Assembly (NCBI GenBank): GCA_002686955.1
Contig: NYZA01000068.1
Coordinates: forward strand, 1 to 22,910
DNA length: 22,910 bases
Origin: Gemmatimonadota bacterium
Lineage (GTDB): Bacteria; GCA-2686955
Direction: 5' to 3'
The notes beneath the pieces were generated by a model, which had not been told where the DNA came from, did not search any database, and saw only the letters and a program-made list of their open reading frames with translations. Of the stretch, positions 2,992 through 6,516 are shown piece after piece. Numbering within the stretch: the first letter of the stretch is position 1; each line of letters opens with the position of its first letter. The translations under genes were made by a program, and so were the position numbers.

Positions 2992-3512
2992 CTCACCCTC
3001 CAGGTTCGTAGTACGAGGACTATCCGTACAATTCTGGTACGCGGCCTAGGGCAGGTCAACGGATACCGGTAGCACGCAGAACGTGCTGTCGTTGGACATC
3101 TTGCGCAGCGGGGCGTGGCCACAGTGAGGTACGCGTCCTTCGTCTCTCGTTTGCTCGGCAGGGCAAAGCGGTTCCGAACATCGTGGATGGCTTTGCCAAG
3201 TCCAGAGGTTCTGGCCACGTGTGGCTACGGCTCGACCCTTGGATTCATCCTGAGGCTGTGTGAGCGACATTCAAGAGACCATCATGGTCGGGGGAAGGTC
3301 CCTGCATCGCCACCCGAAGCCGCCCGCTCGCGCCTTGCCCCGCTCTCTGCGAGGCCGACGCTGGAAGAGCGCCGCATGAACACCCATTTCGCCCTCACGC
3401 CGTCCTGGCGCCACGCCCTTCAGGCCGCCTGCGACGGTCATTGGAGCCCCGGGGGGGGAACTCATGTCTGTGCCGAAAGCTCAGATGCTATTGTCGGCGT
3501 CCTCTTTTGCGA
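2992..3512. other. Divergent intergenic region between the beta-helix gene and pduS
   Basis: I see no supported gene in these 521 bases. The left end carries the beta-helix promoter. Next to it is a stem (AGCACG 3071-3076 with CGTGCT 3082-3087, 5-base loop) with a looser outer CAACG/CGTTG pairing (3058-3062 and 3089-3093). Near the right end is a run of eight G (3451-3458) followed by ATG 3464, which has a purine-rich site in front but is out of frame with the pduS-like gene. No convincing promoter for the plus-strand operon was found. Confidence 0.45.
3031..3059 (-). promoter_or_regulatory. Sigma-70-like promoter of the beta-helix gene
   Basis: On the minus strand, TTGACC (3059-3054) is followed after exactly 17 bases by CAGAAT (3036-3031). 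They match the -35 and -10 consensus at five of six and four of six positions. The predicted start near 3024 gives a leader of about 33 bases that contains the GGAGG ribosome-binding site at 3001-2997. A small hairpin (3071-3087) lies just upstream of the -35. Confidence 0.55.
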
Positions 3513-4829
3513 ATGGCGAATCGAACGATGATCGAACACGTGGCGCAGCACGGAGTCGTCGGCGCGGGTGGCGCCGGATTCCCCACGGCCCGGAAGCTCG
3601 AGGCGAATGCCGACACCTTCCTGGTCAATGCGGCGGAGTGCGAGCCGTTGCTGCACAAGGATAAGGAGCTTCTTCTCCACCACGCCGAGGCGGTGCTGGC
3701 CGGTCTCAAGGTCGGAATGAGATGCGTGGGGGCCGGCCGTGCGATTGTCGGTATCAAGGAGAAGTACGAGCACGTCATCGAGGCGCTGGCGCCGCTGCTG
3801 CCCTCCGGGGTCGAGATTTGCCCGCTGCGCGACAGCTATCCGGCGGGGGACGAGTTCGTGTTGGTGTACGACACACTGGGGCGGATCATTCCCCCGGGGG
3901 GCCTTCCTCTCGATGTCGGGGCGGTGGTCGCCAATGTGGAGACGTTGGCGAATATCGGTTTCGCGAGGCCGGTGACGCGGAAGTTTCTGACGGTCGCGGG
4001 GGCAGTCGAGGAGCCGGTCACACTTTGCGTGCCGGTGGGCGCACCGCTCTCGGCGCTGCTCGACGCCGCGGGGGGGGCGAGCGAGGAGGAATGTGCTTTC
4101 CTGCTCAACGGGGTCATGATGGGGCGCGTGCCCTCGAGCCTCGACGAGCCGGTGACGAAGACGACCGGGGGATTGATCGTGCTGCCCGGCGCGCATCCAC
4201 TCGTCGCGCGCTACAGCCGATCGGCGGCGGCGGTCGATCGGATCGGGCGATCGGCCTGTGACCAATGCAGCTTCTGCACCGAGCTCTGCCCACGATATCT
4301 GCTCGGCCATCCGATCGAGCCCCATAAGGCGATGCGGGCGTTGGGGTTCGCTCCGGATAAGGATGCATGGATCGCGGGCAGCCTCTACTGCTGCGAATGC
4401 AATCTTTGCAGCCTCTACTCCTGCCCGGAAGATCTCGATCCGCGCGATGTCTGCGCAAGCCAGAAGCCGGCTGCGCGCGAGAAGGGGCTCGCCTGGAGCG
4501 GCGCGCCCGAAGATGTGCGGGCCCACCCCGTGATCGACGGTCGTCGGGTGCCGATGACGCGCCTGATGAACAAGCTCGGCCTGAACCGGTTTCGGAATGA
4601 AGGCCCCCTGCGCGCCGAGGCGCTGGCGGTCGATTTGGTCGTGCTGCTCCTTTCGCAACACATCGGCGCGCCTTGCGAGCCGATCGCTCGGGACGGCGAT
4701 TCGGTTCGTGAAGGCGACCTTATTGCGTCGCCTCCCGCGGGCAAGCTCGGCGCCAATATCCACGCGAGTATCGACGGCGTCGTCAAGGTGATGAACGACC
4801 GCATCGTGATCGATGGAAGGGGATGCTGA
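3513..4829 (+). CDS. pduS: PduS-type cobalamin reductase / RnfC-like flavin and Fe-S protein
   Basis: The product resembles PduS, the corrin reductase of propanediol-type microcompartments, along its whole length. The N-terminal VVGAGGAGFPTARKL nucleotide/flavin-binding loop, FLVNAAECEPLL, the YPAGDE motif, an SLBB-like middle (VAGAVEEPVTLCVPVGAPLS) and KTTGGLIVLPG are all present. Counting from ATG 3528, two ferredoxin-like clusters follow: C244-x2-C247-x2-C250-x3-C and C288-x2-C291-x2-C294-x4-C299, each suited to one [4Fe-4S]. The C-terminus ends QHIGAP...IHASIDGVV, as in PduS. In the family it reduces cobalamin for diol dehydratase and pairs with shell protein PduT, which is the next gene here (adjacent, no gap). 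The start is uncertain: ATG 3513 (438 residues) or 3528 (433), both without a clear ribosome-binding site; the family N-terminus favours 3528. Confidence 0.88.
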   Translation: MANRTMIEHVAQHGVVGAGGAGFPTARKLEANADTFLVNAAECEPLLHKDKELLLHHAEAVLAGLKVGMRCVGAGRAIVGIKEKYEHVIEALAPLLPSGVEICPLRDSYPAGDEFVLVYDTLGRIIPPGGLPLDVGAVVANVETLANIGFARPVTRKFLTVAGAVEEPVTLCVPVGAPLSALLDAAGGASEEECAFLLNGVMMGRVPSSLDEPVTKTTGGLIVLPGAHPLVARYSRSAAAVDRIGRSACDQCSFCTELCPRYLLGHPIEPHKAMRALGFAPDKDAWIAGSLYCCECNLCSLYSCPEDLDPRDVCASQKPAAREKGLAWSGAPEDVRAHPVIDGRRVPMTRLMNKLGLNRFRNEGPLRAEALAVDLVVLLLSQHIGAPCEPIARDGDSVREGDLIASPPAGKLGANIHASIDGVVKVMNDRIVIDGRGC

Positions 4830-5399
4830 GTGTCTCCAAGTGCAACTCTGAACGCGATTGGGCTTCTCGAGACGACGAGCATCGGCATCGGTTTTCTTGC
4901 CGAAGACGCGATGCTGAAGGCCGCGGCCGTCGAGCTCCTGGTGGCGCGGACGATCTGCTCGGGCAAGTACCTCGTCGTGGTAGGCGGTGATGTGGCGGCG
5001 GTCACGGCAAGTGTCGAGGCGGGCGCCACCGAGGCCGAGGGAGCGCTGATCGAGCAGCGGATCATTCCGCGGGTTCATGCCGATGTCTTCCCGGCGATCT
5101 CGATGGCGGCGGAGTTCGATGCTGCGGAGCTGAGGGCGCTCGGAATCATCGAGACCTTCTCGGCGGCGAGCATCGTCGAAGTGGCCGACGCGGCGGCGAA
5201 GGCGGCCGATGTACGGCTTCTGCGCGTTCACCTCGCCATGGCCGTGGGTGGAAAGGGCTTTGTGCTGCTTTCGGGAGAGGTGGCCGCCGCAGAGGCCGCG
5301 GTCGCGGTGGGTGCCGCCGTTGCCGCCGAGGAGGGGATCTTGGTGAGCCGCGTCGTGATTCCGGCGCCCTCGGCTGAGCTGATGCGCGAGATCATCTAG
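4830..5399 (+). CDS. pduT: PduT-type tandem-BMC shell protein with Fe-S cysteine
   Basis: This 189-residue protein has two BMC domains. The first opens with IGLLETTSIGIGFLAEDAMLKAA (residues 10-32), the second with LGIIETFSAASIVEVADAAAKAA (about 108-130). This is the layout of single-pore trimeric BMC-T shell proteins. The loop TICSGKYLVVVGGD contains Cys43, matching the cysteine (Cys38 in Salmonella PduT) at which three subunits hold a [4Fe-4S] cluster in the pore. The family role is to pass electrons across the shell and to dock PduS on the lumenal face. GTG 4830 follows the pduS stop at once, with AAGGGG about 9 bases upstream. No BMC-H hexamer, pentamer vertex or dehydratase gene is in the window, so the compartment it belongs to must lie elsewhere, if it exists. 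Confidence 0.9.
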   Translation: MSPSATLNAIGLLETTSIGIGFLAEDAMLKAAAVELLVARTICSGKYLVVVGGDVAAVTASVEAGATEAEGALIEQRIIPRVHADVFPAISMAAEFDAAELRALGIIETFSAASIVEVADAAAKAADVRLLRVHLAMAVGGKGFVLLSGEVAAAEAAVAVGAAVAAEEGILVSRVVIPAPSAELMREII

Positions 5400-5400
5400 T

Positions 5401-6516
5401 TTGGTTTATCGCTTCGGCACGCTCTGGCTTCTCTTGGCGGCGATCGCCGCGCCGATGGCCCGGGCGCACGATTTCGGCGTCTCCTACTCCCGCATCGAGC
5501 TCTCGGCGAAAGAGGTGTCGATCGCGATGTCGATCAATGCCGACGAGCTGCCTCCGGCGGTCTCGCTCGACGACAGTGGCGACGGCTTCATCACCGAATC
5601 GGAAGCGCTGGCCCACGAGAGCGCCATCCGCGCTTTCTTCGAATCGAAGCTGCGGGTCGAGAAGGATGGCCGGGGATGCTCCGCACAGGCCGGGCCGGTG
5701 AGCTATGCGCCGATGACGACCGCGGTCGAGACGATTCTGCGCTTCGACTGCCCCCCCGGCCCCGGCGCGGTGAAGATCGATTACTCCTTCGTTCCCGCCT
5801 TCTACCACCCTCACAGGAACGTGGCGACGGTGGTTCTGGGGAGCCAGGAACGCACCTTTCTCTTCTCGGCGAAGAGGTCGACGATGACCGCGCGCCTGGT
5901 GGGGAACGAGATCGCGCGGGACGAAGCGGCTCTACGTTCCGGTGCCGCGTTGGCTTGGGCGGGGGCCCGCGGCGTGCTCACGACGGCGGATGCGATCCTG
6001 CTCGCGGCCTGCTTCTGGATCGGTCCGGCTCCCGCGATCGCCGCGCTGGCCGCGGGCCACCTGGTGGGGGCGTTGCTCGCGGCGACCGGCGCCATCGCGC
6101 TCTCGACCGGAGCCCTTTCGGCCGCTCTCGCCCTGGCGATCGCCTTCGTGGCGCTCGAAAACTCCCTCGGGCGAGGCGGCGGGAGTGGGCGCTGGGTGGT
6201 GGCCCTTCCCGCTGGTTTGCTCCTCGGCTCGGTGGCCGTAGCTCTGCTCTCTCGCGGAACCGACATCGCTGCGCTCTCGACCGGAGCGACCTTCGCCCAT
6301 GGCTTTGCCGGAGCGGTGACGCTCGCGATCTTGGCGATCGCACCGAAGCTGGTATTGGCGCGCTTTTGGGAACGGGTGAACGACAAGGCGTGGCTCGCCA
6401 TAGTGCTCATCGGACTGCTCTGGTTCGCCGCGCGCGCCTTCGACTTCGATCTGCCCGCCGGTGAGCTCCTCGACCCTCTCGCGACCGATCTCCGCGCCTC
6501 GGAGCCCTCGCCTTGA
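5401..6516 (+). CDS. HupE/UreJ-like membrane protein with EF-hand loop, metal histidines missing
   Basis: A signal peptide (residues 1-22, cleavage at ARA before HDF) leads into an exported domain of about 140 residues. That domain has a textbook EF-hand loop at 57-68 (D-x-S-x-D-G-x-I-x-x-x-E) and two cysteines. About six membrane helices follow. They align with HupE/UreJ-2 proteins: AIAFVALENSL corresponds to the family's VAVENLL helix and FAHGFAGA to its LLHGFGFA helix. HupE and UreJ are nickel/cobalt permeases or their accessories. In the first helix, the family's G-x-R-H-x(5)-D-H reads GARGVLTTADA, so both histidines are gone. Classical metal transport is therefore doubtful. The TTG start lies one base after the pduT stop; the next ATG (5455) would cut the signal peptide. 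Close spacing suggests an operon with pduS-pduT. Confidence 0.75.
   Translation: MVYRFGTLWLLLAAIAAPMARAHDFGVSYSRIELSAKEVSIAMSINADELPPAVSLDDSGDGFITESEALAHESAIRAFFESKLRVEKDGRGCSAQAGPVSYAPMTTAVETILRFDCPPGPGAVKIDYSFVPAFYHPHRNVATVVLGSQERTFLFSAKRSTMTARLVGNEIARDEAALRSGAALAWAGARGVLTTADAILLAACFWIGPAPAIAALAAGHLVGALLAATGAIALSTGALSAALALAIAFVALENSLGRGGGSGRWVVALPAGLLLGSVAVALLSRGTDIAALSTGATFAHGFAGAVTLAILAIAPKLVLARFWERVNDKAWLAIVLIGLLWFAARAFDFDLPAGELLDPLATDLRASEPSP

Follow-up and report, generated by a model that had tools for sequence, protein, structure and literature searches.

A pduS-pduT gene pair on the 22,910-bp contig C68 (G000:C68), which in its entirety is the window analysed here, is in our reading a two-gene satellite of a sugar-phosphate-utilizing (SPU) bacterial microcompartment (BMC) that is encoded on two other contigs of the same genome, C236 and C127; the pair would provide this organelle with an electron route from NADH to the pore of the shell. 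We give this reading a probability of about 0.72. The host is a metagenome-assembled genome (MAG) of 4.28 Mb in 270 contigs, with an estimated completeness of 84.5%, and its nearest named relative is the Gemmatimonadetes MAG T2_metabat2_scaf2bin.146.

The gene pair and the microcompartment genes of its genome

The pair and its immediate setting comprise the following features of the window:

3513..4829, plus strand: pduS, NADH:FMN / dicluster [4Fe-4S] oxidoreductase (Pfam, identity to Salmonella PduS, motifs)
4830..5399, plus strand: pduT, tandem BMC-domain trimer (BMC-T) shell protein with pore cysteine Cys43 (Pfam, NCBIfam, alignment, AlphaFold2 model)
4956..4958, plus strand: codon of Cys43, predicted axial [4Fe-4S] cluster ligand of the PduT trimer (alignment with Salmonella PduT; homologues)
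2992..3512, no strand: intergenic region from a beta-helix gene on the minus strand to pduS (list of open reading frames (ORFs) and Pfam)

The pduS frame is open from a TTG at 3441, has an ATG at 3513 and ends at 4829. Its product displays the four Pfam domains (Complex1_51K, SLBB, Fer4_17 and RnfC_N) and the two tetracysteine motifs by which PduS is recognized: C249-x2-C-x2-C-x3-C259 and C293-x2-C-x2-C-x4-C304, numbered from the ATG at 3513. Both motifs are kept in all 73 full-length PduS proteins examined. Along its full extent the protein shares 44% identity with Salmonella PduS and, in comparison with it, retains the GAGGAGFP loop; NCBIfam holds no fitting PduS model, the best being rnfC below its cut-off. 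PduT contains two copies of PF00936 (E 1e-40) and is 43% identical to its Salmonella counterpart, whose pore cysteine aligns with Cys43. This residue is invariant among 10 homologues, and the tandem BMC domain with a pore cysteine in a C-x-G-K motif, which typifies PduT, is present here as the motif is in all 82 PduT proteins examined. With TIGR02526 the match is E 7e-34 and 117 bits, under the equivalog cut-off of 250: the protein is PduT-like and not a curated TIGR02526 equivalog. The AlphaFold model of PduT (pLDDT 91.7) finds its best solved-structure matches in 3nwg (a Desulfitobacterium microcompartment protein), 3n79 (PduT C38S) and 3pac (PduT); by this modelled fold PduT is a shell trimer, and Cys43 is predicted to be a ligand for a [4Fe-4S] cluster on the trimer axis. 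An earlier note on this DNA had described the PduS cluster motifs and Cys43 as intact, which the domains and the Salmonella alignments confirm.

The same note had proposed a search of the whole genome for shell and vertex genes. With PF00936 and PF03319 nothing is found on C68 beyond PduT; elsewhere in the genome the search recovers two BMC-H genes on C236 and four BMC-P (vertex) genes across C236 and C127, in these gene orders:

C236: BMC-H, BMC-H, aldehyde dehydrogenase (AldDH), PduL, BMC-P, DUF711
C127, minus strand: cytidine deaminase, BMC-P, RpiB, BMC-P, BMC-P, DeoC, short ORF, thymidine/pyrimidine phosphorylase

DeoC and RpiB together with these core enzymes define the SPU type (Axen 2014, PMC4207490; Sutter 2021, PMC8217296). 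On C127 the PF01791 DeoC, which is above the TIGR00126 equivalog cut-off at 290 bits, and the PF02502 RpiB are interleaved with three BMC-P genes, and the phosphorylase is of the thymidine phosphorylase type. On C236 the AldDH stands beside a PduL of the PTAC family (PF06130). It is closest to the acetylating acetaldehyde dehydrogenase of the EutE type (TIGR02518, E 4e-181, 603 bits and thus just under the cut-off of 620), a type that matches the product of DeoC. No alcohol dehydrogenase was identified among the ORFs tested on C236 and C127, and the sole match to the Fe-ADH family in the genome is a weak one on C11. Judged by gene content, the genes of C236 and C127 together form a near-complete SPU metabolosome, and the organelle probably digests the sugar of DNA by catabolism of deoxyribose phosphate. 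The same three segments lie on separate contigs in the sister genome and nearest relative, G001: two BMC-H genes, AldDH and PduL on C623; PduST on C701; cytidine deaminase, three BMC-P genes, RpiB, DeoC and the pyrimidine phosphorylase on C154.

The pair resembles that of the PDU1 systems of Salmonella and Citrobacter in the order pduS-pduT, the domains, both tetracysteine motifs, the pore cysteine and 43-44% identity. It differs from them in that no other pdu genes adjoin it, that PduT falls under the TIGR02526 equivalog cut-off and that the BMC of the genome possesses DeoC and RpiB rather than a diol dehydratase. The published SPU loci share with the BMC of this genome DeoC (PF01791), RpiB (PF02502), an EutE-type AldDH, PduL, a BMC-P triplet and BMC-H, and PduS has been reported in those of Atribacteria (Axen 2014, PMC4207490; Sutter 2021, PMC8217296). 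Unlike them, the window genome has its genes on three contigs with PduST separate, and a nucleoside phosphorylase and a cytidine deaminase adjoin its BMC-P triplet. A further likeness is with the GRM1b, GRM3 and GRM5 (glycyl radical enzyme) microcompartments with accessory PduS/PduT, which are likewise B12-independent and for which a conduit from lumen to cytosol has been proposed; in these, however, the pair lies within the GRM locus, along with a glycyl radical enzyme (Ferlez 2019, PMC6325248).

The second BMC-H of C236 (L009:1467-1895) carries at its C-terminus a long extension that comprises about 45 residues in the window genome; the second BMC-H of Stygiobacter (L132:2689-3357) is 222 aa long with the BMC domain at 4-79. 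The extension is possibly a core- or nucleic-acid-binding tail. The C236 shell genes are followed directly by a DUF711 (UPF0210) gene (L009:5028-6473).

BMC genes are lacking around the pair over at least 3.5 kb on its upstream side and 17 kb on its downstream side: from pduS to the start of C68 the ORF list and Pfam reveal none, and the earlier statement that no further BMC gene lies beside the pair holds for the full contig. On our reading of the sequence the genes upstream of pduS are the beta-helix gene and a nucleotidyltransferase gene. Profile searches bear out the identities given previously to the beta-helix gene and to rlmN. The gene after pduT had been called HupE-like; the gene is present and the label is weak, as HupE_UreJ_2 (E 0.099) and DUF6702 (E 0.0018) are both sub-threshold. 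It codes for a 371-aa membrane-like protein (5401-6516, plus strand) and begins 1 nt past the pduT stop. This spacing suggests co-transcription, yet G001 lacks the gene and has an aconitase-like gene after pduT, and among relatives it is not kept next to PduT; we rejected it as an operon partner.

Isolated pairs in other genomes and the placement of this one

A PduT scan of the GTDB species genomes yielded 80 loci from other genomes, with PduS directly upstream of PduT in nearly all. Three groups can be told apart: 29 isolated loci, flanked on either side by at least 5 kb, in most cases 8-10 kb, without another shell gene; 21 loci with other shell genes nearby, mostly in Acidobacteria and with the main locus usually divergent at 1.5-3.2 kb; and 30 loci on contigs too short to classify. 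Every one of the 29 genomes with an isolated pair encodes PF03319 and further PF00936 proteins elsewhere; apart from PduT, the usual set is three BMC-P and two BMC-H. In the single-contig genome G013 the dispersal is complete: the pair lies at 91 kb, BMC-H at 586 and 875 kb, BMC-P at 906, 1162 and 2850 kb, and the enzymes are also scattered (AldDH at 1143 kb, DeoC at 673 kb). Because of the shell genes elsewhere in 29/29 genomes and this dispersal in a single contig, isolated pairs are an arrangement that recurs and is real, and are not as such a product of assembly.

One main locus of the Acidobacteria was read in detail: a class II aldolase-type BMC locus (L060:2197-8522) with aldolase, three BMC-P, AldDH, three BMC-H, PduL and acetate kinase. 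It is divergent to pduS-pduT, and the ORFs tested there include no alcohol dehydrogenase. Beside the isolated pairs no conserved third partner or gene for an external electron acceptor was found across phyla; the gene clusters that did emerge near them besides PduS and PduT were rejected, being shadow frames, a scattered ABC-type ATPase family and an upstream gene found mainly in Ignavibacteria.

Dispersed and satellite BMC loci have been described before (PMC4207490, PMC8217296). A satellite has a partial shell set, PF00936 without PF03319, and lies distal to a non-satellite locus with BMC-H and BMC-P in the same genome: PduT stands alone on C68, and C236 is such a locus, on a separate contig and at least 4.6 kb away. 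Since PduS is also in the locus, the pair would be satellite-like in the scheme of Axen. That a near-complete BMC of the SPU type is encoded on two other contigs supports one of the two suggestions of the earlier note, that of a satellite of a distant BMC locus. Its other suggestion, a shell-less or simplified PduS-PduT electron-transfer module working without a microcompartment, agrees with the want of another BMC gene on C68 and with PduS being the single conserved neighbour across isolated loci. It was not borne out, however: the genome itself encodes BMC-H and BMC-P, BMC-P and further BMC domains occur in all 29 isolated-pair genomes, none of which is a shell-less case, and the fold of PduT is that of a shell trimer. 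With shell genes in each isolated-pair genome tested, we rejected this module as highly improbable.

Several points weigh against the satellite reading. The MAG is 84.5% complete and in 270 contigs, and its assembly does not fix the real spacing of the three segments. C68 and C236 both end a few kb from their BMC genes, and if their left ends abutted, PduS and the first BMC-H gene (BMC-H1) would be divergent, with about 4.6 kb or more between them. The PduT tree places the window protein and that of G001 (support 98/90) in a set of 24 rows that is otherwise Acidobacteria, mostly with the pair beside the main locus, apart from the isolated pairs of Ignavibacteria. The direction of electron flow, the regeneration of NAD+ and the encapsulation of PduS are, moreover, what we infer from the genes. 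The second and third of these points favour the alternative that the pair belongs to the main BMC locus, divergent to BMC-H1 and some 5 kb upstream of it, much as the pairs of those Acidobacteria are divergent to their main locus at 1.5-3.2 kb, the isolation being an assembly break. Yet by our reading of the sequence BMC-H1 is preceded by a HepT/MntA-like pair, and pduS by the beta-helix and nucleotidyltransferase genes; the sister G001 has a different gene upstream of BMC-H1; and the contig ends do not overlap, a result compatible both with adjacency and with separation. Even with abutting ends, the unrelated beta-helix and nucleotidyltransferase genes would still separate the pair from BMC-H1. 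We consider a split locus unlikely.

Proposed electron route and other roles for PduS

Citrobacter PduS contains FMN and two [4Fe-4S] clusters, oxidizes NADH and binds PduT (PMC2982820), and PduS/PduT have been proposed as an electron conduit from lumen to cytosol (PMC6325248). For the eut system of Listeria, the redox balance of the BMC has been reported to be linked to an external electron sink (PMC8547011). For the window genome we propose a comparable process: deoxynucleosides would give deoxyribose-5-phosphate; AldDH and PduL would produce acetyl-CoA, acetyl-phosphate and NADH, the latter from the conversion of acetaldehyde to acetyl-CoA; PduS, docked on the lumen side of PduT, would oxidize NADH via FMN and its two [4Fe-4S] clusters; and the cluster in the PduT pore would hand the electrons to a cytosolic acceptor, so that PduS-PduT would regenerate NAD+ in place of an alcohol dehydrogenase. 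Such recycling appears the simplest role for the pair because the predicted encapsulated chemistry makes NADH and none of the ORFs tested on C236 and C127 was identified as an alcohol dehydrogenase; we infer the direction and the acceptor.

Electrons might conversely flow inward, with PduT and PduS delivering reducing power to the lumen, for instance for reduction of acetaldehyde to an alcohol, as was suggested for the PduS of SPU and GRM5 loci lacking an alcohol dehydrogenase (PMC4207490). Pfam finds no alcohol dehydrogenase domain in the window PduS itself, however, and the reported midpoints of -150 mV for the PduS flavin and +99 mV for the PduT cluster favour a passage from lumen to pore (PMC2982820), which makes inward flow improbable. 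Homology to PduS, and the activity known for the Citrobacter protein (PMC2982820), would also permit, on the model of PDU organelles, a corrin (B12) reductase that serves a signature enzyme dependent on B12. We regard this as very unlikely: the enzymes of C236 and C127 need no B12, PduS is found in B12-independent BMCs (PMC6325248, PMC4207490), and PF02286 (B12 diol dehydratase) has no match in the genome, although this profile also matched nowhere in the control and the MAG is incomplete.

Extended DeoC proteins and FRAG microcompartments

The DeoC of the window genome carries a 76-residue extension ahead of the catalytic core, starting with an amphipathic segment, MNHTQLVERITDHVLEALRKEG. Its N-terminal hydrophobic moment has a p of 0.001, against 0.9 in Stygiobacter, so that amphipathicity is not clear in all relatives; position, length and conservation are suggestive of an N-terminus like an encapsulation peptide (EP). 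DeoC is present in all 27 PduT-bearing genomes tested, and its match reaches the extension (query residue 52 or lower) in 22 of these, against none of 20 DeoC proteins from 35 genomes without PduT, counts that come from related genomes and are not independent. By reading of the sequences, an extension of roughly 45 residues or more is found in all 20 isolated-pair genomes tested; two other PduT genomes, G024 and G046, have DeoC without it. Measured from the first ATG the extension is longer in PduT genomes (p 0.0016), a noisy measure given uncertain start codons and several controls without a value. AldDH was matched in 8/20 isolated-pair genomes at 1e-40, too strict a limit for the count to decide its presence in Ignavibacteria.

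The extension includes a Cys-rich stretch: CTPCTNSGHC in the window genome (L010:6302-7171, minus strand) and, among the DeoC proteins of L131-L154, a conserved Cys-Cys-WERNVVDQP block in those of Ignavibacteria. In Cloacimonadota (L140:5254-6645, L141:4508-5872) an extra domain of about 150 residues separates the aldolase core from the N-terminal helix, in genes that adjoin a BMC-P gene.

The microcompartments termed FRAG have no defined organisation, with shell genes at many places and no obvious signature enzyme, and their function was left open; EP-bearing PF01791 enzymes at a distance were noted in HO genomes (Sutter 2021, PMC8217296). Isolated-pair genomes resemble them in their scattered shell genes, with a BMC-P triplet and a BMC-H pair amid housekeeping genes. 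The FRAG-like relatives have this dispersed organisation and, unlike reported FRAG, carry the extended DeoC; the window genome, in contrast, has its genes on three contigs, with enzymes clustered with shell genes on C127 and C236. In Melioribacteraceae and relatives a distance of 7-13 kb separates the BMC-H pair from the DeoC gene, and in the case read, Stygiobacter electus, which is the named, non-MAG member of the isolated-pair genomes, the housekeeping genes tmk, S41 protease, ymdB and folD intervene. Because the extended DeoC occurs in isolated-pair genomes, and at this distance from the BMC-H pair in Melioribacteraceae, some FRAG microcompartments may be dispersed SPU organelles, an idea of which no statement was found in the main texts of the literature searched. 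At evenly balanced odds we propose, more broadly, that an isolated PduS-PduT marks a widespread dispersed FRAG-like organelle of Ignavibacteria, Bryobacterales, Sumerlaeota and Cloacimonadota: a deoxyribose-phosphate metabolosome whose signature enzyme would be a DeoC with an N-terminal tag, encoded at a distance from the shell genes, and whose NADH electrons would leave via the PduT pore rather than by way of an alcohol dehydrogenase.

In itself the window locus is nothing out of the ordinary, a probable satellite of a BMC type already known; its interest comes from what the comparison suggests about FRAG organelles and NAD+ recycling. The PduS-PduT unit has been kept as a redox module complete in itself, and all the tested genomes that hold it have a shell as well. 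The extended DeoC shared by the isolated-pair genomes offers a candidate substrate, deoxyribose-5-phosphate, for FRAG microcompartments. If the proposed route is true, NAD+ regeneration in BMCs without alcohol dehydrogenase becomes directly testable.
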